Assembly: GCA_031263435.1 (NCBI GenBank)
Contig: JAISFT010000210.1
Location: forward strand, 1-14,155
Length of the DNA: 14,155 nt
From: Treponema sp.
GTDB taxonomy: Bacteria; Spirochaetota; Spirochaetia; Treponematales; Breznakiellaceae
Direction of reading: 5' to 3'
The notes beneath the pieces are model-generated. The model was not told the origin of the DNA. It saw only the letters and a program-made list of their open reading frames with translations, and made no database searches. The position numbers and the translations under genes are program-made. This document shows, one piece after another, positions 3,712-14,028 of the stretch; the first letter of the stretch is position 1, and each line of letters opens with the position of its first letter.

Positions 3712-4167
3712 GTGAGAGTGCAGACCAAGGCCTATGGGTCTATCGAAGTGGATGAGAAGCAGAAAATTGTATTTCCCCAGGGGCTTTTCGGCTTTGAGGA
3801 AATCCGGGACTATGTGCTTTTGGACGCGGAACGGCAGCCCTTCTACTGGCTCCAGTCGATTGAAAAGGAGCAGGTGGCCTTTGTTGTGATAAACCCCTTC
3901 CTGATTCGTCCCGATTATGAGCTGAATATCGGCAACGAGGAGCTGGCGGATATCGGCATCGACACCCCGGACAAGGCCCTTGTTTTTACGATTGTTACGA
4001 TCCCCGCGGACGACAGTCCCATGACCGTCAACTTTCAGGGGCCCCTGGCGATTAACCGGGAAACCCGGGAGGGGAAGCAGGCCATCCTTAACGATCCCCG
4101 CTGGAAGACCAGGCACGACATCATGGCGGAAATGGCCGCCGGCCCGGCCCGGCCGCCGCTGAGGTAA
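3712..4167 (+). CDS. fliW: Flagellar assembly factor FliW (CsrA antagonist)
   Basis: Small cytoplasmic protein that binds either flagellin or CsrA. When flagellin is exported, free FliW sequesters CsrA and flagellin translation rises (established in Bacillus subtilis). The sequence shows the family pattern: [19 protein letters not shown] near residues 21-39, PFYWLQS at about 43-49, and the end GPLAIN followed by [10 protein letters not shown]. It has 151 aa, a normal length. The start is GTG at 3712, supported by AGGAG at 3701-3705, 6 nt upstream. It is followed after 4 bases by csrA, the standard pairing. The SD lies in the loop of a predicted hairpin. Confidence 0.96.
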
Positions 4168-4171
4168 GTCC

Positions 4172-4411
4172 ATGCTCATACTATCCAGAAAAACCAACGA
4201 AAAAATTATGATTGGGGATGATATTTCCGTCTCGATCATCGAGGTACGGGGCGATCAGGTCCGCCTGGGGGTGGAGGCTCCCCGGTCGGTCAAGGTATTC
4301 CGGCAGGAAGTGTTTGACGCCATCAAGGCGGAAAACAGGGCCGCCGCAGAGTCCCGGCCCCGGCTCCCCGACATCGGCATCGGGGGGGAAAGGAAAAATC
4401 CCCTGGCGTAA
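4172..4411 (+). CDS. csrA: Carbon storage regulator / translational repressor CsrA
   Basis: Dimeric RNA-binding protein that blocks ribosome access by binding GGA in hairpin loops, especially in flagellin leaders. The N-terminus [15 protein letters not shown] is canonical. Two RNA-contact residues are present: L4 in strand 1 and R44 in VFRQEVF of strand 5. At 79 aa it is longer than the 61-aa E. coli protein; the extra C-terminal tail (helix [10 protein letters not shown], then a Pro/Gly-rich end) fits the CsrA class that is antagonised by FliW through this extension. ATG at 4172 follows GAGGTAAG, which overlaps the fliW stop. The stop codon lies in the loop of a terminator serving the opposite strand. 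Candidate targets in this window are the leaders of both flaB genes and flaG. Confidence 0.97.
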
Positions 4412-4420: not shown

Positions 4421-5551
4421 CTAATCGTTGTCCCGGTTGATCTCGAAAATTTTGTCGAATTCATCGGCGATGATGCGGAAGACCTCGATAAGGAAGGGGT
4501 CGAAATGGGTTCCCCGTTCCGCCATCATCTTCGATACCGATACTTCGTGGCTTAGGGCGGGCTTGTAGCTCCGCTGCATCCTCAGGGCGTCATAAACATC
4601 GGCAATGGAGACGATCCGGGCCGCCAGGGGGATCATCTCCCCCTCAAGCTGGAAGGGATAACCGCCGCCGTCCCAGCGTTCATGGTGGGAAAGGGCAATT
4701 TCCTTTGCCATGGGGTTGGGATAGGTGGAAAGGATAAAGGCGCCGTTCTTGGTATGCTCCCGCATGACCGTCCACTCCCAGTCCGAAAGGGGGCCTTCCT
4801 TGTTCAGAATATCGTCGGGGGTGCCGATTTTGCCCACGTCGTGCATGCTGGCAAGAAAGCCGATGTTGTCGATAAAGTCCGCGTCGATGTTGGGGTACTG
4901 GGGCCCCAGGCTGTAAAACAGTTCTTCCGCCAGGCGCTTGGAGTAATAGTTTACCCGGGTGATATGCTTTCCCGTGTCGTTATCCTTGAGTTTGGAAGCT
5001 TCCAGCAGGCTCAGGAAGACGGCCCGCAGCAACTGTTTGTTTTCCTCCGTTACATCATCGAACATGATGACAAACTGGCCGGGGTTTTTGACGATCTCCG
5101 CGGCGAATAAGTACACCCTGGTCTGGACCGTGGCCATATCGTGGGATTTGATCTTGGTTTCCCCTTTCCAGGAGTAGCCGTTCTTTCCCCCCACGATGGT
5201 TTCCCTGATCTTGCGGATGTCCTCTACCTGAAAAAATTTGCCGAAAATGTCGAAGAAGTAATTTTGCTGCATCCGGGGGAACCCGATGAAGAGATTGTCG
5301 CAGGCCTGATTGGTGGCGATGATCTTGAGCTGCCGATCCACAAAAAGAATGGGGAACATGCTGGTCATGAACGGGTTAAGGGCCGCCGGAATCGAGAACT
5401 CTGTAAGCGAATCTTCGGCCCTGCCCAGGCCGATAGCCTTTCCCAGAAGCCCGATATGGGAGGAGTAATCTTCCCCCGCTTCTTCAACCAGCTCTTCGAC
5501 CGGTTCCAGGGTCTCCAGCTCTTCCAGGGTGGCTAGTTCATCATCAAGCAT
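4421..5551 (-). CDS. PAS-HD-GYP domain protein, predicted c-di-GMP phosphodiesterase
   Basis: Predicted cytoplasmic enzyme or sensor that hydrolyses cyclic di-GMP. Residues 1-30 are very acidic. A PAS-like domain (about 60-170) is recognisable by FPILFVDRQLKIIATNQACD and the end VIMFDDVTEENK. The HD-GYP domain (about 180-370) carries its hallmark residues: H196, H237-D238 with GK at 240-241, H289-H290-E291, D294, the GYP motif GGGYP at 295-299, and DVYDALRMQRSYKPALS at about 318-334. Full-length motifs suggest an active enzyme; activity is inference. There is no transmembrane segment. The ATG has only a weak purine-rich SD (AAAGAAAAG). It is last in the minus-strand cluster and is followed by a terminator. 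Role in motility is inferred from context. Confidence 0.93.
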   Translation of the reverse strand: MLDDELATLEELETLEPVEELVEEAGEDYSSHIGLLGKAIGLGRAEDSLTEFSIPAALNPFMTSMFPILFVDRQLKIIATNQACDNLFIGFPRMQQNYFFDIFGKFFQVEDIRKIRETIVGGKNGYSWKGETKIKSHDMATVQTRVYLFAAEIVKNPGQFVIMFDDVTEENKQLLRAVFLSLLEASKLKDNDTGKHITRVNYYSKRLAEELFYSLGPQYPNIDADFIDNIGFLASMHDVGKIGTPDDILNKEGPLSDWEWTVMREHTKNGAFILSTYPNPMAKEIALSHHERWDGGGYPFQLEGEMIPLAARIVSIADVYDALRMQRSYKPALSHEVSVSKMMAERGTHFDPFLIEVFRIIADEFDKIFEINRDND

Positions 5552-7082: not shown

Positions 7083-8174
7083 CTAGATATCAATATATTC
7101 AAACACAAGGGCGTTGATTAGATTTAAGGATTTCCGGGGTACTTTTAGAAATTTAATGTGCATCACCGTGCCCGTCCGGTTCCGGTTGGTCCGCAGAACC
7201 TCTCCCAGGGCCGCGACACGCTGATTACCGGCGCTAAAATCTATCCGAAGCCGGATTCCGGCGGATACGGCGCCGGATATCTGGACGGAGCAGCCCCCGA
7301 CGGAAATATCCAGGACCCGGCCCACTATCTTTCGTTTGTCGACAACCATCTTCTGCTCATGCCTGCGGGTTCCGCTTTCCAGGTGGACCAGGCTGAATTC
7401 GGCGGGAATCATTATTTGCCGCCGGCGGAAGCGGCGCTGGGAGAGCCGTCTTATCGCGTTGGAATGGATAATCTGCAGAACCTGGCCTTCCCCCGGGGCC
7501 TTGGTGGTCCCGTAGACCGTGGAATTTACGGAAAAGCCGTTACTGGATTTGGTGAAAAAGGACAGGGTAATCTGTTTGTTCCGGCCGATGGGAATCAGAT
7601 CCCCCAGGGCGGTAACCGGGTTTTCTACCAGAAGATAGGCCCCCCGGGAGGATATGACGCGGATGGGGTAGTTGTCCTTGTCGATGATGAGGACCGCCGG
7701 GGTATTTTCCGGGATTACCCGGGTAGAATTGACCCCCACCCCCCCGCCGGTGGTGGATTCCAGGATGTTACGGGTGGAAAACAGCAGCGAAATTTTTTGC
7801 TGAATCTCCTCTTCGGGGCTGGTACTCCTGTCAATGGCGTTGTAGGCCTGCCTGAAGTACCGGTCCATCAGTGCCGGTGATTGGGTCATCCGTTCCGGGT
7901 CTGTGGCCCCGCCGCTCCTCAGGACGAAGGAAAGCATCTTGGACTGGGCGGAATCCAGGCCGATGGCATGGGAAAATCTACGGGCGGAGGAAGCGCCGCT
8001 GTGGCCTGGATGGGGCGCGCTGAAACTGGAATTGGAAATCCCCAGCCGTTTTTTTGAAAGGTTTATTATCACCAGAATGATGATGATGACCGCCAGTCCA
8101 ACGACAAAGTAGACCGCGTCCATAGGATTGGTCTCTTTGTAAAACCGCGGTAATTGCAATAAGTACGCGTGCAT
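7083..8174 (-). CDS. Membrane-anchored PilZ domain protein, predicted c-di-GMP receptor
   Basis: Single-pass membrane protein with a cytoplasmic C-terminal PilZ domain. With the start chosen here it has 363 aa: a transmembrane helix at about residues 19-39 (AVYFVVGLAVIIIILVIINL), a long linker region, then PilZ with both c-di-GMP motifs, the arginine cluster RRFRRR at about 247-252 and DISVGG at about 289-294. Possession of both motifs supports ligand binding. The frame is open for 34 more codons upstream, but ATG at 8174-8172 has a run of G (GGGGGGGGAA) directly before it and lies 10 bases after the preceding stop; a second ATG at 8123 is possible. Context with fliD and an HD-GYP gene suggests c-di-GMP control of the flagellar motor or cell envelope, by inference. 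Confidence 0.88.
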   Translation of the reverse strand: MHAYLLQLPRFYKETNPMDAVYFVVGLAVIIIILVIINLSKKRLGISNSSFSAPHPGHSGASSARRFSHAIGLDSAQSKMLSFVLRSGGATDPERMTQSPALMDRYFRQAYNAIDRSTSPEEEIQQKISLLFSTRNILESTTGGGVGVNSTRVIPENTPAVLIIDKDNYPIRVISSRGAYLLVENPVTALGDLIPIGRNKQITLSFFTKSSNGFSVNSTVYGTTKAPGEGQVLQIIHSNAIRRLSQRRFRRRQIMIPAEFSLVHLESGTRRHEQKMVVDKRKIVGRVLDISVGGCSVQISGAVSAGIRLRIDFSAGNQRVAALGEVLRTNRNRTGTVMHIKFLKVPRKSLNLINALVFEYIDI

Positions 8175-8184
8175 TTCCCCCCCG

Positions 8185-9006
8185 TTATGCCTTGATGGTG
8201 TCGTAAAATTGGAGCAGCCGGGGGGCCAGTTCGTATTCGGCCAAATCTCCCACAAGAACCGTATCCCGGTCTTCATAGGCCCGGATAAGGTCCTTAAGGG
8301 TAGAATCGAATTCCCCGATATAGTCCAATACCGGCATTCCCCCTACGGTTTTATTTTCGGGGAAAAAACCTTCGATTTTTAGCAAATTAAAGAGCCGGAT
8401 GAGCTTTTCCGTCAGTGTGGAGAAGAGTCCCATGGTTTCCGCTGCCCGGCGATCCTTGCCGGTTTGAATATCCAGCGGAAGGTCCTGGAGCCGCCGGACC
8501 AGGGCTTCCACCAGGGGCCCGGCGCCGCTCAGTTCCTGCCGGGGATTTTCCAGTTCCCGCAGCCGCTCTTCCAGCATACCCCGCAGTTCGCCGGGCGCGG
8601 GGCCTTCCCCCGCAAAGGCCCCCTCCGCCGCCGTCCATAGTTCCGGCATCTCGGATTTAAGGAACTGCGCCTCCGGCAGAACCGTCCATGCGGCCCGCAG
8701 GCCTTCCCGTTCAGCATAGGCCGATTCTTCCATCTCCCGGATCATGCCGTAAAGAGACACAATGGACTGGGCCGCATGTTCCGCCCAGGAAGCGGTTTCC
8801 AGATCCAGGGTTTCCACGCTTGAAAGATCCCGGCCAAAAAAACGATCCAGGGAAGCTTCGCCGATGGTTTCTCCGTTTACCCTGAGGCCGGAGAGCCGGT
8901 ATCCCGATCCGTGCAGCCAGTCTTCCAGGGCGGAAAGGACATCCCCCAGGGTCTTTTCGTGTTCAAGGGTAATATCCGTCTGTTTTCCGTTAATCGTGAT
9001 TTCCAT
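8185..9006 (-). CDS. 273-aa protein of unknown function downstream of fliD
   Basis: I do not recognise a named family. Residues 1-70 alternate short strands and a helix (MEITINGKQTDITLE, then TLGDVLSALEDWL, then LRVNGETIG, then VETLDLE), which looks like a beta-grasp (ubiquitin/ThiS-like) fold. The rest is helical, ending in an acidic conserved-looking motif DTVLVGDLAEYELAPRLL at about 248-265. No signal peptide or membrane segment, so cytoplasmic. It starts at ATG 9006-9004 with AGGAAA about 9 nt upstream and ends 10 bases before the PilZ start. It occupies the position where fliS (flagellin chaperone) often follows fliD, so a chaperone or assembly-factor role is possible but unproven. Confidence 0.82.
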   Translation of the reverse strand: MEITINGKQTDITLEHEKTLGDVLSALEDWLHGSGYRLSGLRVNGETIGEASLDRFFGRDLSSVETLDLETASWAEHAAQSIVSLYGMIREMEESAYAEREGLRAAWTVLPEAQFLKSEMPELWTAAEGAFAGEGPAPGELRGMLEERLRELENPRQELSGAGPLVEALVRRLQDLPLDIQTGKDRRAAETMGLFSTLTEKLIRLFNLLKIEGFFPENKTVGGMPVLDYIGEFDSTLKDLIRAYEDRDTVLVGDLAEYELAPRLLQFYDTIKA

Positions 9007-11144: not shown

Positions 11145-11522
11145 CTATACAGTTTCGTCAAACAAAAAACCGATGGTCTCCTCTATTCTGGAGTGCAGCC
11201 GCTGAAGCTCCTCAGGCGGGAGCACCTTGATCACCTTATCGGTTGTCCTGTCGATGACCTTGATGCTGATTTCGTTGGATGTATGATCTACAACAAACTG
11301 GAGTCTGCGGTTAAATGAAAGGCCGACCTGCTCAAGACTCTTGGCAATGTCGTGCAGTTCCCTGGTTTGGCCGGCCGGCGGCTTTGCGGCGGCGGCATTT
11401 TCCACAGCCCGGGCAGATCCCCGGCCGCCAAAAATAGCCTGGGCGCGATTTCTGGAAGCATCGGAGACAGGATCTCCGGGCATACCATAAACTCTGCCCC
11501 CCGAATCGACAATACTTATCAT
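11145..11522 (-). CDS. flaG: FlaG-family flagellar protein
   Basis: FlaG proteins are small and commonly sit before fliD; in other bacteria loss changes filament length, but the mechanism is unclear. The C-terminal part is the diagnostic FlaG domain: LSFNRRLQFVVDHTSNEISI, then KVIDRTTDKVIKVLPPEELQ. The N-terminal half is low-complexity and probably disordered. The frame is open further up, but ATG at 11522-11520 is chosen because GGAGG (complement of 11528-11532) lies 5 nt before it; this gives 125 aa. The leader carries a 7-bp hairpin with an AUGGAU loop 24 nt from the SD, a candidate CsrA site, and a terminator further upstream separates it from flaB. Confidence 0.93.
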   Translation of the reverse strand: MISIVDSGGRVYGMPGDPVSDASRNRAQAIFGGRGSARAVENAAAAKPPAGQTRELHDIAKSLEQVGLSFNRRLQFVVDHTSNEISIKVIDRTTDKVIKVLPPEELQRLHSRIEETIGFLFDETV

Positions 11523-11527
11523 GGTAA

Positions 11528-11565
11528 CCTCCATGTATATTACCATTCTGTCATCCATGACAGAA
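11528..11565 (-). promoter_or_regulatory. Candidate two-site CsrA target in the flaG leader
   Basis: On the transcript, UUCUGUC (complement of 11559-11565) pairs perfectly with GACAGAA (11546-11552), leaving the six-base loop AUGGAU. The loop GGA (11554-11556) is 24 nt upstream of the GGA in the SD AUGGAGG (11528-11534). GGA in a hairpin loop plus GGA in the SD is the established CsrA repression geometry. CAUGGAUG differs from the published SELEX core CARGGAUG at one base. Control of flaG would also reach fliD if the two are translated from one transcript. Confidence 0.6.
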
Positions 11566-11572
11566 ATTCAAT

Positions 11573-11609
11573 ACAAAATAAGATAGGGAAGAGCGCGAAC
11601 TTCCCTATC
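11573..11609 (-). terminator. Intrinsic terminator between flaB and flaG
   Basis: GATAGGGAAG (11582-11591) and CTTCCCTATC (11600-11609) make a perfect 10-bp stem with an 8-base loop. On the minus strand it is followed by TTATTTTGT (complement of 11573-11581). It lies about 120 nt downstream of the flaB stop and separates highly expressed flagellin from flaG-fliD. No clear promoter is visible between it and flaG, so partial read-through may feed the downstream genes. Confidence 0.85.
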
Positions 11610-11728
11610 CCGGGGATTCAAAAGACAACGTCCAGAAGCCTCTTATAACCCCTTAATTACTCATCATTGCCCCAATCTTGAGGACAAGCGGTAAACCCCC
11701 TCCAGATGCCCGGTGGGTCTGTTCACCC

Positions 11729-12583
11729 CTAGCCTAAAAGCTGAAGCACCGACTGGGTCTGCACATTGGCCTGGGCCAGCATGGCAGTTCCCGCCTGGGA
11801 AAGGATAGAATCCCTGGAAAAATTGACCACCTCGGAAGCCATGTCTACGTCCCGGATCCGGGATTCGGCGGCCTGCAGGTTTTCGGCGGCAATCGCCACC
11901 CCCTGAGCTGCCATTTCGAACCGGTTCTGATAGGCCCCAAGATCAGCCCGCTGTTTGGATACATACCGCAGGGCATTATCCACCGTACCGATAGCCATGT
12001 TGGCATCTTCCGGCGAAGCAATGTTGATGAACCCTTCCTCTCCCTGAGCGTCCTGTAAGCCAAGCGCCGTGGCGGTCATGTTACCAATAAAGACCTGTTC
12101 GTTCTGGTCCATATTGGCCCCCACCTGCAGCAGCATGGTTCTGGTCCCTTCCTCACCCCTGGCGAAAGCCCCGGTCAGAAGATTCATTCCGTTAAATTGA
12201 GCGTGGCTCGCAATACGGTTAACTTCATCGACCAACTGGGACACTTCCACCTGGATCTGCAGCCGGTCCTCATCGGTATAAATTCCGTTGGCGGACTGAA
12301 CCGACAGTTCCCGGAGGCGGTGCAGGATATCCTGGGTCTCCTGAAGGTAGCCTTCAGTAGTCTGGATAAACGATACGCCGTTCTGGATATTGCGCTCTGC
12401 CTGATTAAGGCCCCGGATCTGGCTCCGCATTTTCTCGGATACCGCAAGTCCGGAGGCGTCATCTCCGGCGCGGTTGATCCGCAGACCGGATGAGAGCTTT
12501 TCAATTTCCTTGCTTACTGCGCCCTGGGTTACCCCAAGGCCGCGGTTGGCAAACATGGCGCTCATGTTGTGGTTTATAATCAT
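11729..12583 (-). CDS. flaB: Flagellin FlaB (second copy), filament core protein
   Basis: Core subunit of the periplasmic filament. Starts [17 protein letters not shown], the spirochaete FlaB signature, and contains the conserved D1/D0 parts ([35 protein letters not shown]) and the C-terminal helix [20 protein letters not shown] followed by VLQLLG. At 284 aa it lacks outer D2/D3 domains, as FlaB does. The first ~130 residues are nearly the same as in the upstream copy, while the middle (about 145-185) diverges. ATG at 12583-12581 has AAGGAGG 7 nt upstream. Its leader contains a 9-bp hairpin with loop AUGGAC. Which of FlaB1/2/3 it corresponds to cannot be decided here. Confidence 0.97.
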
Positions 12584-12590
12584 ATATTAC

Positions 12591-12633
12591 CCTCCTTGCA
12601 TCTTATTAACCCCAGGCTGTCCATAGCCCGGGG
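12591..12633 (-). promoter_or_regulatory. Candidate two-site CsrA target in the second flaB leader
   Basis: On the transcript, CCCCGGGCU (complement of 12625-12633) pairs with AGCCUGGGG (12610-12618): eight Watson-Crick pairs and one G-U. The six-base loop is AUGGAC. The loop GGA (12620-12622) is 27 nt upstream of the GGA in the SD CAAGGAGG (12591-12597). The G-U pair is favourable only in the minus-strand RNA (the plus strand would have A-C), which supports selection on this strand. Confidence 0.62.
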
Positions 12634-12704
12634 CCGCTCCGCACGAATGAACACGCAGGGGACAGCTTCGCGCCGCTCTCACCCCTTATGTCCCTACGGG
12701 GCGA

Positions 12705-12817
12705 AACATCTTTCTAGCCCTCCGGGCTTGTTATGCGTAAAGCGCATTCTATGCGCAGAGCGCAGCAAAGCCCCGCGGGGAGGGAACCCCGTTTTGCGGG
12801 CTCCGTAAAAAGATGTT
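12705..12817. repeat. Cluster of small hairpins bounded by an inverted repeat (REP/MITE-like)
   Basis: AACATCTTT (12705-12713) and AAAGATGTT (12809-12817) are exact inverted repeats 113 bp end to end. Between them are at least five small palindromes: AGCCC/GGGCT (12716-12728), ATGCG/CGCAT (12733-12747), TGCGC/GCGCA (12752-12764), CCCCGCGGGG (12771-12780) and CCCG/CGGG (12788-12800). No transposase. The arrangement suggests a dispersed structured repeat, but only one copy is in the window, so repetition in the genome is inference. Confidence 0.55.
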
Positions 12818-12832
12818 CCGCGCCGCCGTACC

Positions 12833-12860
12833 GTTTTAGGCGCAGGAAGGTGTTTGTCAA
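12833..12860 (-). promoter_or_regulatory. Sigma-70-like promoter candidate for the second flaB
   Basis: On the minus strand TTGACA (complement of 12855-12860) is a perfect -35 box, followed after 16 bp by TAAAAC (complement of 12833-12838), a 4/6 match to the -10 consensus. If used, it would give the second flaB a leader of about 240 nt containing the hairpin cluster and the CsrA-type hairpin. No sigma-28-like site was seen in this gap, unlike the first flaB. Confidence 0.4.
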
Positions 12861-12949
12861 AGATCCCTGGCGGCATCTGCCGGTAAAAGCCGGCGGATGT
12901 CCCGATCAGGCAGGGTCAGGACCCCGCCAAACCACCACAAGGAATCCCC

Positions 12950-12975
12950 AATTCCCGGCCCTTGGACCGGGAATT
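12950..12975 (-). terminator. Strong hairpin after the first flaB (weak or non-canonical terminator)
   Basis: AATTCCCGG (12950-12958) and CCGGGAATT (12967-12975) form a perfect 9-bp stem with an 8-base loop, 33 bases past the flaB stop. On the minus strand the U-run lies before rather than after the stem (it is followed by GGGGATT), so it is not a classical intrinsic terminator. It may stabilise the flaB mRNA 3' end or allow partial read-through. Confidence 0.45.
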
Positions 12976-13007
12976 AAAAGATCCCATTTCAGAATCAGTA
13001 TACTACG

Positions 13008-13868
13008 TTACTGGAGAAGCTGCAAGACGGAAGATGTCCGCTGGTTGGCCTGGGCCAGCATGGCAGTCCCCGCCTGGCTGAGGATCTGATCCCGGGTGTA
13101 CTGGACCATCATGTTGGCCATATTGGTGTCCCGGATCCGGGATTCGGAGGCCTGCAAGTTCTCCGCCCCAATATCCAGCCCTACAATGGCGTGTTCCATC
13201 CGGTTCTGATAGGCCCCCAGATCGGCCCGCTGCTTGCTTACCTGCTGGAGCGCGGCGTCCAGGGTACCGATGGCCCGGTTTGCGTCTTCGGGAGTACCCA
13301 GACTGAGCAGATTATCCTCCTGCGGGTCCCCAAGCCCCAGAGCCCTGCTGGTCATGGTGCCGATGAACACCTGTTCCCGCTGGTCCATATTTGCGCCGAT
13401 ATGGAACCACATGGAGGCGGTAACCACGTTTTCCCCCATCAGCCGGGCAAAACGGCCGGTAAGCAGGTTCATCCCGTTGAATTGGGCATGACTGGCTATC
13501 CGGTCAATTTCGTCGACCAGTTGGGAAACCTCCACCTGGATCATCATCCGGTCCTCGTTGGTGTAGATCCCGTTGGCGGACTGAACTGCCAGTTCCCGGA
13601 CCCGCTGAAGAATGTCCTGGGTCTCCTGAAGGTAGCCCTCGGTAGTCTGAATAAAGGAAATACCGTTGGCGGCGTTCGCTGAAGCCTGGTTAAGGCCCCG
13701 GATCTGACTCCTCATCTTTTCGGATACCGCCAGCCCCGAAGCATCGTCCCCCGCCCGGTTGATACGCAGGCCGGAAGAAAGCTTTTCCATCTCTTTGGTA
13801 AGGCTGTTCTGGGTAACTTTGAGGGATCGATCCGCAAACATGGCGGACAGATTGTGATTGATGATCAT
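13008..13868 (-). CDS. flaB: Flagellin FlaB (first copy), filament core protein
   Basis: Core subunit of the periplasmic filament, 286 aa. It shows the FlaB N-terminus [20 protein letters not shown], the block [20 protein letters not shown], the stretch [20 protein letters not shown] (the equivalent region carries O-glycans in T. denticola, as I recall) and the C-terminal helix [20 protein letters not shown] then LQLLQ. The middle differs from the second copy (for example [20 protein letters not shown]). ATG at 13868-13866 has AAGGAGG 5 nt upstream. It has its own sigma-28-like promoter and the best CsrA-type leader hairpins of the window, so it is probably strongly expressed and post-transcriptionally controlled. 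Confidence 0.97.
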
Positions 13869-13870
13869 GT

Positions 13871-13914
13871 CATCCTCCTTGGATGTTGTGTATTAAGGCA
13901 TCCTTGCCTTAATA
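13871..13914 (-). promoter_or_regulatory. Candidate two-site CsrA target in the first flaB leader
   Basis: Two hairpins lie in a row on the transcript. The upstream one has a perfect 9-bp stem, UAUUAAGGC/GCCUUAAUA (complement of 13906-13914 and 13891-13899), and the six-base loop AAGGAU; the run CAAGGAUG agrees with the published CsrA SELEX core CARGGAUG. The second is CAUCC-AAGGA-GGAUG (complement of 13871-13885), a 5-bp stem whose loop is part of the SD AAGGAGG. The two loop GGAs are 25 nt apart. This matches the upstream-site plus SD-site layout known for B. subtilis hag. Confidence 0.72.
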
Positions 13915-13970: not shown

Positions 13971-13998
13971 TTTTCGGCGTTAAAACAGGAATACTTGA
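13971..13998 (-). promoter_or_regulatory. Sigma-28 (FliA)-like promoter of the first flaB
   Basis: On the minus strand TCAAGTAT (complement of 13991-13998) is followed after 12 bp by GCCGAAAA (complement of 13971-13978). Against the enterobacterial sigma-28 consensus TAAAGTTT-N11-GCCGATAA this is 6/8 and 7/8. The predicted start near 13964 would give a leader of about 95 nt that includes both CsrA-type hairpins. Upstream, three A-tracts (complement of 14001-14006, 14010-14014, 14016-14021) could act as an UP element or bend. Confidence 0.6.
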
Positions 13999-14028
13999 GA
14001 TTTTTTGGATTTTTCTTTTTTGGGCGCA

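Follow-up and report, generated by a model that had tools for sequence, protein, structure and literature searches.

Control of flagellin synthesis by CsrA has been described in several bacteria. In Bacillus subtilis, CsrA and FliW control hag (Yakhnin 2007 and Mukherjee 2011, as cited in PMC7652899), whose leader has two CsrA sites, one of them over the Shine-Dalgarno sequence (SD), and FliW is the CsrA antagonist (PMC7652899). In Campylobacter jejuni, the flaA leader presents ANGGA loops, has its second site at the ribosome-binding site, and shows compensatory changes in other species; the leaders of flaG, flaB, and flgI also bind CsrA (PMC4894983). Among the spirochetes, CsrA binds the flaB3 and flaB4 leaders of Leptospira and represses flaB3 in L. 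biflexa (PMC8668096), and CsrA sites near the SDs of flaB1 and flaB2 were stated in 2022 for Treponema denticola, which has the same flgK-flgL-fliW-csrA cluster as the locus studied here (PMC9481697). That locus lies in what we call the window, the whole 14,155-nucleotide (nt) stretch of Treponema sp. contig JAISFT010000210.1 that was analyzed. By open reading frames (ORFs) and Pfam, the plus strand of the window encodes flgK, flgL, fliW, and csrA, and its minus strand encodes fliD, flaG, and two core flagellins, flaB_b and flaB_a. As a prediction from sequence comparison, flaB_b and flaB_a very probably have two-site CsrA platforms as their leaders, as does flaG in this lineage. CsrA is said to act on Borrelia flaB as well, in work attributed to Sze in 2011. 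CsrA control of flagellin was already known, as the first-pass annotation of the window had noted for Bacillus and Borrelia.

This locus departs from each of those systems. Compared with B. subtilis hag, it belongs to a spirochete with two flagellin paralogues (a third occurs in relatives), each with its own platform and with unrelated stems. In C. jejuni, both sites lie in adjacent hexaloops (PMC4894983), whereas here the SD hairpins of flaB_b and flaG are predicted to be weak and long spacers hold a helix. The Leptospira sites are described at the SD, and the accessible text of PMC8668096 describes no upstream hairpin module; for T. denticola, the accessible text of PMC9481697 offers one discussion sentence and describes no structure, covariation, or binding. 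The first-pass annotation had supposed that a common module covering these genes might be undescribed, which goes too far given the T. denticola flaB1 and flaB2 sites, the Leptospira flaB leaders, and C. jejuni flaG. What is new here is the covarying module, its link to the Termite-flg RNA family, and a pair of complementary loops at the 5' and 3' ends of flaB_a; in a literature search that reached few subscription papers, we met neither the module nor its tie to Termite-flg nor the features of the 3' untranslated region (UTR) for spirochetes.

In the proposed mechanism, one half of a CsrA dimer would bind the A-N-GGA loop of an upstream hairpin and the other half a GGA within the SD. One dimer bridging both sites would thus keep the ribosome off the SD. 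FliW that is free of flagellin would take CsrA away, so that translation would follow export and filament growth. We infer CsrA binding, bridging, translational repression, and relief by FliW from the arrangement of the leaders. These leaders have a common anatomy, a loop GGA that is kept, stems that covary, and a spacing that is either short or interrupted by a helix, and csrA and fliW occur with flagellin.

Loop and stem conservation in the flagellin leaders

All three hairpins of the window lie where the first-pass annotation had placed them, on the minus strand (Table 1), and its distances from the loop GGA to the first GGA of the SD, 25 nt in flaB_b, 27 nt in flaB_a, and 24 nt in flaG, were accurate. 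The second GGA of the flaB_b GGAGGA is 28 nt from the loop GGA. Each leader therefore presents a GGA in a hairpin loop and a second GGA over the SD at 24 to 27 nt, within the range of 10 to 63 nt quoted for bridging (PMC7652899). The flaB_a hairpin extends to as many as 11 base pairs (bp), three of them G-U, around a core of 9 bp with one G-U; because of these G-U pairs, its stem is complete solely as minus-strand RNA, as the annotation had also remarked. The SDs of flaB_b and flaG themselves fall within weak predicted hairpins. In these two genes the second CsrA site may also be looped.

Four ungapped A-N-GGA-N hairpins on the two strands of the window scored at least 15, versus 0.22 per shuffled window, and three of the four, the modules described here, are followed by an SD-like GGAG or GAGG at the right distance. 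With 60 dinucleotide shuffles, 0.017 such modules would be expected by chance at score 15 and 0.217 at a looser score of 12; shuffled windows thus do not give them as often as the real one (0.02 to 0.2 versus 3). Folding energy of the 80-nt leaders is mildly unusual (z scores of -1.75, -2.24, and -1.61; 16, 4, and 13 of 200 shuffles per leader fold as well as the real sequences), and with z values of -1.6 to -2.2 we dropped it as proof. The strength of the signal is in the loop and its position and not in bulk stability.

To place these modules among relatives, we collected 210 flagellin leaders, 131 from 80 loci and the window and then 79 new ones from the same order; the first flagellin of L055 was left out, its start lying beyond the contig. 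Sorted by SD, they comprise 87 leaders of class A (flaB_b type), 67 of class B (flaB_a type), 55 of class C (for the most part belonging to a third flagellin encoded at a different locus), and 1 that was not placed. In 78/87 leaders of class A and 65/67 of class B, A-N-GGA stands 21 to 31 nt upstream of the SD, compared with 5.8 and 2.7 when the leaders are shuffled. The best hairpin with any six-base loop reached the score in 71 class A and 27 class B leaders, and its loop was A-N-GGA in 70 of the 71 and in all 27. Loop position 2 is free (A 46, C 13, T 9, and G 3 in class A; T 16, A 5, C 3, and G 3 in class B). Folding put the GGA in a hairpin loop closed by at least 4 bp in 86/87 class A and 67/67 class B leaders, versus 21.1 and 18.6 with shuffled flanks. 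Hairpins with a strict six-base loop are fewer in class B (38/67), partly because 13/67 of its leaders fold with loops of 7 to 9 nt. In the flaB_b leader of Breznakiella homolactica (L084), tandem A-N-GGA hairpins lie 46 and 25 nt before the SD.

The stems change sequence while keeping their pairs. With leaders anchored on A-N-GGA, pairs 1 to 6 form in 94 to 99% of class A leaders versus a column expectation of 44 to 86%, and in 75 to 96% of class B leaders versus 52 to 93%. The class A loop is closed by C-G in 78/87 leaders, in agreement with the consensus from systematic evolution of ligands by exponential enrichment (SELEX) quoted in PMC7652899. Covariation was scored on rows picked for pairing (and in class A also for spacing), a choice that favors the result: among 35 class A leaders 92.8% of cells were paired versus 61.9% in shuffles, with a score of 0.892 versus 0.263 that none of 500 shuffles reached, and over the 35 class A and 33 class B rows the percentage paired, the two-sided cells, and the score all beat 500/500 shuffles. 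The number of class A pairs with a two-sided change was not beyond chance, being matched by 89/500 shuffles. A test less sensitive to kinship was based on disjoint sister pairs on the gene tree. In the 26 class A sister pairs that differ, the pairing is kept by 38 two-sided and 19 one-sided changes and broken by 17; there were 44 two-sided changes versus 23 under independent arms (maximum of 1,000 permutations, 32). We dropped a further statement, that loop positions 1, 3, 4, and 5 never change between sisters, since the anchor itself required A-N-GGA. For the flagellin leaders, then, the claim of selection on structure made in the first-pass annotation holds up, the stems covarying around a loop GGA that stays.

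These loop data bear on two explanations that need no CsrA. The hairpin could be a ribosome standby site or decoy, its AAGGA-like loop pairing with the anti-SD and helping or delaying initiation with no protein involved; AAGGAU, which is SD-like, is indeed the commonest class A loop (50/78). Pairing with the anti-SD would favor A at position 2, which is free, and needs no A at position 1, which is as constant as the GGA at positions 3 to 5. csrA also tracks flagellin (see below), and we regard this explanation as very improbable. Alternatively, the hairpin could be a 5' stability or insulating element in which the loop GGA is incidental. In its favor, the stems are stable, and a sigma-28-like promoter closely precedes the hairpin of L041; nevertheless, hairpins chosen by their stems have the A-N-GGA loop almost without exception, stem sequence changes freely, and most leaders keep the distance to the SD, so that we give this reading an even slighter chance.

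Spacing, the flaG leader, and the wider phylum

Among leaders with a clear hairpin, the loop GGA and the SD GGA are 21 to 28 nt apart in 68/78 of class A and 36/38 of class B, and the gap from hairpin to SD in these short-spacer leaders is 8 to 16 nt. This spacing agrees with the optimum for bridging of more than 18 nt (PMC7652899) and with the 21 nt between the C. jejuni flaA sites (PMC4894983). In a further 10 class A and 2 class B leaders the spacing is 40 to 57 nt, the extra bases folding into a hairpin that leaves 5 to 14 nt unpaired; no more than 9/200 shuffles fold as well as this helix in 9 of the 12, and 14 to 26 do so in L038, L061, and L077. Class C leaders have the hairpin at threshold in 33/55, at 39 to 85 nt from the SD, and an intervening helix leaves 10 to 12 nt unpaired in 22 of these 33. 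The order in L029, L031, L035, and other class C leaders is a short A-N-GGA hairpin, a large helix, and then the SD. Eight long spacers were judged by eye to be separate (two share the locus L074, and L256 and L273 belong to the wider phylum). Of the eight, seven outdo nearly all of 1,000 shuffles in folding (at most 0.028), and L273 gave 0.141. The unpaired remainder after removal of the helix (5 to 19 nt in the eight cases) was not unusual in shuffles (0.52 to 0.86). The idea that effective spacing is tightly held is therefore weakened, since the helix alone is unusual and the remainder is not. The pattern as a whole would be consistent with selection that keeps both sites within reach of a single CsrA dimer.

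In the phylum at large, 57 additional flagellin leaders were scanned with a looser threshold; 44 have an A-N-GGA hairpin, and in six Borrelia-sized genomes it lies 30 to 42 nt from the SD. CsrA is present in 58/62 and FliW in 59/62 flagellin-bearing genomes, and CsrA is present in 1/16 genomes in which flagellin gave no match or a single weak one, the exception being the genome with the weak match. Because nearly all flagellated genomes have csrA, correlating the module with csrA among them proved uninformative, and only the contrast with flagellin-less genomes tells. This contrast may point to a CsrA dedicated to flagella in this group. Taken together, loop conservation, covariation, and the co-occurrence of csrA with flagellin support the CsrA-FliW reading of both flagellin leaders well.

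Several observations weigh against that reading or limit its reach. Most of the hairpins here have 6 to 11 pairs, versus mostly no more than 4 contiguous pairs in the published SELEX hairpins (PMC7652899). Class B sister pairs are noisier than those of class A, with 29 two-sided changes, whereas permutations averaged 19.8 and reached 31 at most. The loop GGA that the first-pass annotation expected relatives to keep is kept in most class A and class B leaders, but 11 of 20 fetched flaB_a homologues (L315 to L325) retain the hairpin with a loop of AUGA, AAGA, or ACGA; the 20 are a nonrandom sample, picked from genomes in which no Termite-flg hit had been seen. These 11 retain the SD GGA, and 3 of them have A-N-GGA 36 to 37 nt upstream, outside the hairpin loop. 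Across the phylum, 13/57 leaders had no such hairpin at the looser threshold, and in the six Borrelia-sized genomes the AU-rich spacer of 21 to 33 nt is without structure. In L. interrogans, transcripts of flaB1, flaB2, and flaB4 increased when csrA was overexpressed (PMC8668096). Finally, in flaG the spacing is 22 to 32 nt in only 4 of 41 readable leaders (the window, L001, L023, and L070), and deletion of csrA in C. jejuni left FlaG levels unchanged (PMC4894983).

The last two points raise the possibility that the CsrA targets are the two flagellins only and that the flaG hairpin is due to chance or transient; the weaker binding of CsrA to C. jejuni flaG than to flaA is in keeping with this (PMC4894983). 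Of 44 loci with a flaG hit, 41 gave a readable leader, although some of their starts, which were set by an SD rule, are doubtful; the three left out comprise two that lack a start candidate and one that lacks an SD. An upstream A-N-GGA hairpin is present in 14 of the 41, compared with 0.1 expected, and those outside the four short-spacer leaders lie 53 to 101 nt from the SD. In 17 of the 41, an A-N-GGA hairpin with a stem of 4 bp or more has the SD itself as its loop, compared with 1.3 expected when the 5' flank is shuffled. These excesses, along with the CsrA-bound flaG leader of C. jejuni, make restriction to the flagellins rather unlikely in our view. The common two-site module of the first-pass annotation thus stands for both flagellins and for flaG of the window, and it is not general among flaG leaders, since so few keep the spacing. 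CsrA control of flaG, on the analogy of C. jejuni, where binding to the leader has been shown, is plausible.

Termite-flg and the loops of the flaB_a transcript

The flaB_a leader also appears to belong to a described RNA family. Rfam found no match in the window at gathering scores; with an E-value cutoff, the leader matched Termite-flg (RF01729) over its full length (model positions 1 to 106 of 106) with a score just under the gathering score (Table 1), the match ending 21 bases before the flaB_a start. The gathering score was passed by 9/15 related loci. Fast filters gave one match each in 33/146 genomes of the order, 26 of them above the cutoff, and L314, from a genome that these filters had scored as empty, later matched at 42 bits. 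In the genomes compared (G001, G051, and G106), the match lies between flaB_b and flaB_a. The last (3') hairpin of Termite-flg is the A-N-GGA CsrA-type hairpin. The family was listed in 2010 as "Termite hind gut only," probably cis-regulatory and probably not a riboswitch (PMC2864571), and this was the only paper with the term in the literature searched. The accessible text of PMC2864571 gives no function, whereas here the family is placed in a treponeme order and, where compared, before flaB_a, with a CsrA role proposed. The job of Termite-flg is likely to be that of a CsrA platform at its 3' hairpin, judging from the leaders compared.

The 5' domain of Termite-flg, which is also recognizable in genomes without a match to the Rfam model, has a loop GGCGCGA about 71 to 88 nt before the SD. 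A terminator-like hairpin after flaB_a, with a stem that varies between genomes, has the loop UCGCGCC, complementary to the first over 7 nt, and both loops are present in 73/76 flaB_a genes. In 450,640 bases, with stems of at least 6 bp, the 3'-type loop occurred 26 times in the flaB_a 3' UTR and nowhere else, and the 5'-type loop occurred 22 times in the leader, with a single occurrence outside it; with weak stems, 5 (3' type) and 20 (5' type) were at the expected places and 21 and 20 elsewhere. Both loops are present in 91 of the 96 flagellin genes that carry a 3' UTR hairpin (see below), and two of the other five lack both.

In the first 76 genes, the loops did not covary beyond chance (permutation, 0.31). 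In the larger set, a clade of 11 (ten found by script and L319 by eye; the script still misreads L137, L317, and L319) has GGCGCA in the 5' loop and UGCGCC in the 3' loop, an exchange of G-C for A-U at pair 6, where two more rows carry G-U. When 41 distinct combinations were permuted, pair 6 was matched in 5/20,000 and pairs 1 to 7 jointly in 24/20,000, compared with 1,809/20,000 for pair 7, 5,473/20,000 for pair 1, and 16,807/20,000 for an outside control. The predicted loop-loop energy is about -13 kcal/mol. We tentatively propose that flaB_a mRNA closes on itself, the leader loop GGCGC(G)A kissing the loop U(C)GCGCC in the terminator-like hairpin of the same transcript about 1.1 kb downstream. 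We hold this with less than even confidence because the A-U state arises only once on the tree, the search pattern fixed pairs 3 and 4 and narrowed the choice at pairs 2 and 5, and the core CGCG, being palindromic, raises the odds of chance complementarity. Such a 5'-3' contact beside the CsrA clamp could couple translation or decay of flaB_a mRNA to read-through into flaG-fliD.

Just before the terminator-like hairpin lies another conserved 3' UTR hairpin, AAGAGRC-NN-CUGGACGU-Y-GUCUUUU. Its core TGGAC is present in 71/76 flaB_a tails, the other five being recognizable by eye. With at most two mismatches, the pattern was found in 67/146 genomes, once in each save one genome with two, and the reversed pattern had no match in the 146. 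Among 94 distinct sequences of this hairpin, a few differ in the closing pairs by C-G/U-A and A-U/G-C exchanges, and Rfam gave no match to it up to an E value of 10.

Setting of the modules and implications

The feature coordinates are collected in Table 1. The best structural relatives of the window CsrA and FliW are two chains of one FliW-CsrA complex, 5dmb. Residues L4, V42, and R44, counted by eye, are all present in the window CsrA. The closest relatives of flaB_b are 88 to 90% identical and come from Treponema sp. genomes; the window may derive from a termite gut. Between csrA and fliD lie genes for a PilZ-domain protein (7083 to 8276, minus strand) and an HD-domain protein (4421 to 5551, minus strand), which may point to cyclic-di-GMP signaling beside flagellar control. 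Near the flagellin cluster of one relative (L008, 2095 to 2335, minus strand) is a cobalamin riboswitch.

Table 1. Features of the window and the basis for each
Feature	Position	Strand	Basis
fliW	3712..4167	+	Pfam FliW, E 4.9e-42; best solved relative 5dmb chain A
csrA	4172..4411	+	Pfam CsrA, E 5e-25; best solved relative 5dmb chain D
flaG	11145..11522 (start ATG at 11522)	-	Pfam FlaG; start picked by SD
flaG SD (AUGGAGG) and start codon	11520..11535	-	Sequence
flaG CsrA-type hairpin, 7 bp, loop AUGGAU	11546..11565	-	Fold, motif scan
Terminator-like hairpin after flaB_a, loop UUCGCGCU at 11592-11599, complementary to 12667-12674	11582..11609	-	
Conserved flaB_a 3' UTR hairpin (AAGAGGC..CUGGACGU..GUCUUUU)	11620..11644	-	Without Rfam match
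flaB_a, core flagellin, class B leader	11729..12583	-	ORF; Pfam Flagellin_N and Flagellin_C
flaB_a SD (GGAGGG) and start codon	12581..12597	-	Sequence
Termite-flg RNA (RF01729) match, flaB_a leader	12605..12711	-	38.7 bits, E 1.2e-4, gathering score 40
flaB_a CsrA-type hairpin, loop AUGGAC (Termite-flg 3' hairpin)	12608..12635	-	Fold, scan, relatives
Loop GGCGCGAA, Termite-flg 5' domain	12667..12674	-	Loop comparison
flaB_b, core flagellin, class A leader	13008..13868	-	ORF; Pfam Flagellin_N and Flagellin_C
flaB_b SD (GGAGGA) and start codon; second GGA site	13866..13881	-	Sequence
flaB_b CsrA-type hairpin, 9 bp, loop AAGGAU	13891..13914	-	Fold, motif scan, relatives
flaB_b sigma-28-like promoter	13971..13999	-	Pattern match

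The paralogues also differ upstream. A sigma-28-like pattern precedes 56/86 class A leaders (0.5 expected), that of the window, with the pattern at 13973 to 13998, included, 8/55 class C leaders (0.3 expected), and 0/67 class B leaders; it replaced CGATAW, which was too strict as a promoter mark (21/87). This split fits different transcription of the paralogues, as has been reported for the T. denticola flagellins (PMC9481697).

We also searched seven genomes for other targets with a covariance model built from class A leaders (R1). It found flaB_b in 7/7, with E values from 9.5e-9 to 1.1e-3. Apart from flaB_b, no E value was below 0.08 among the 150 of 483 to 2,202 candidates scored per genome, and the model barely reached flaB_a (16 bits in G051). 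Of 12 weaker loci inspected, L194 and L190 have an A-N-GGA hairpin with no SD after it, seven have no such hairpin, and in L192, L193, and L196 the SD itself is in a small A-N-GGA hairpin.

Spirochete filaments are mixed polymers that need set flagellin ratios, and the arrangement of these leaders suggests CsrA-FliW homeostasis acting on several flagellin paralogues at once. The spacers with an inserted helix would serve as natural experiments on the bridging of two sites by one CsrA dimer. If the pairing of the flaB_a end loops is true, it would make a bacterial flagellin mRNA that is ringed by RNA alone. For Termite-flg, an RNA family lacking a described function since 2010 in the literature searched, the proposed platform offers a testable job, and the family now has a place in a taxon and before a gene.

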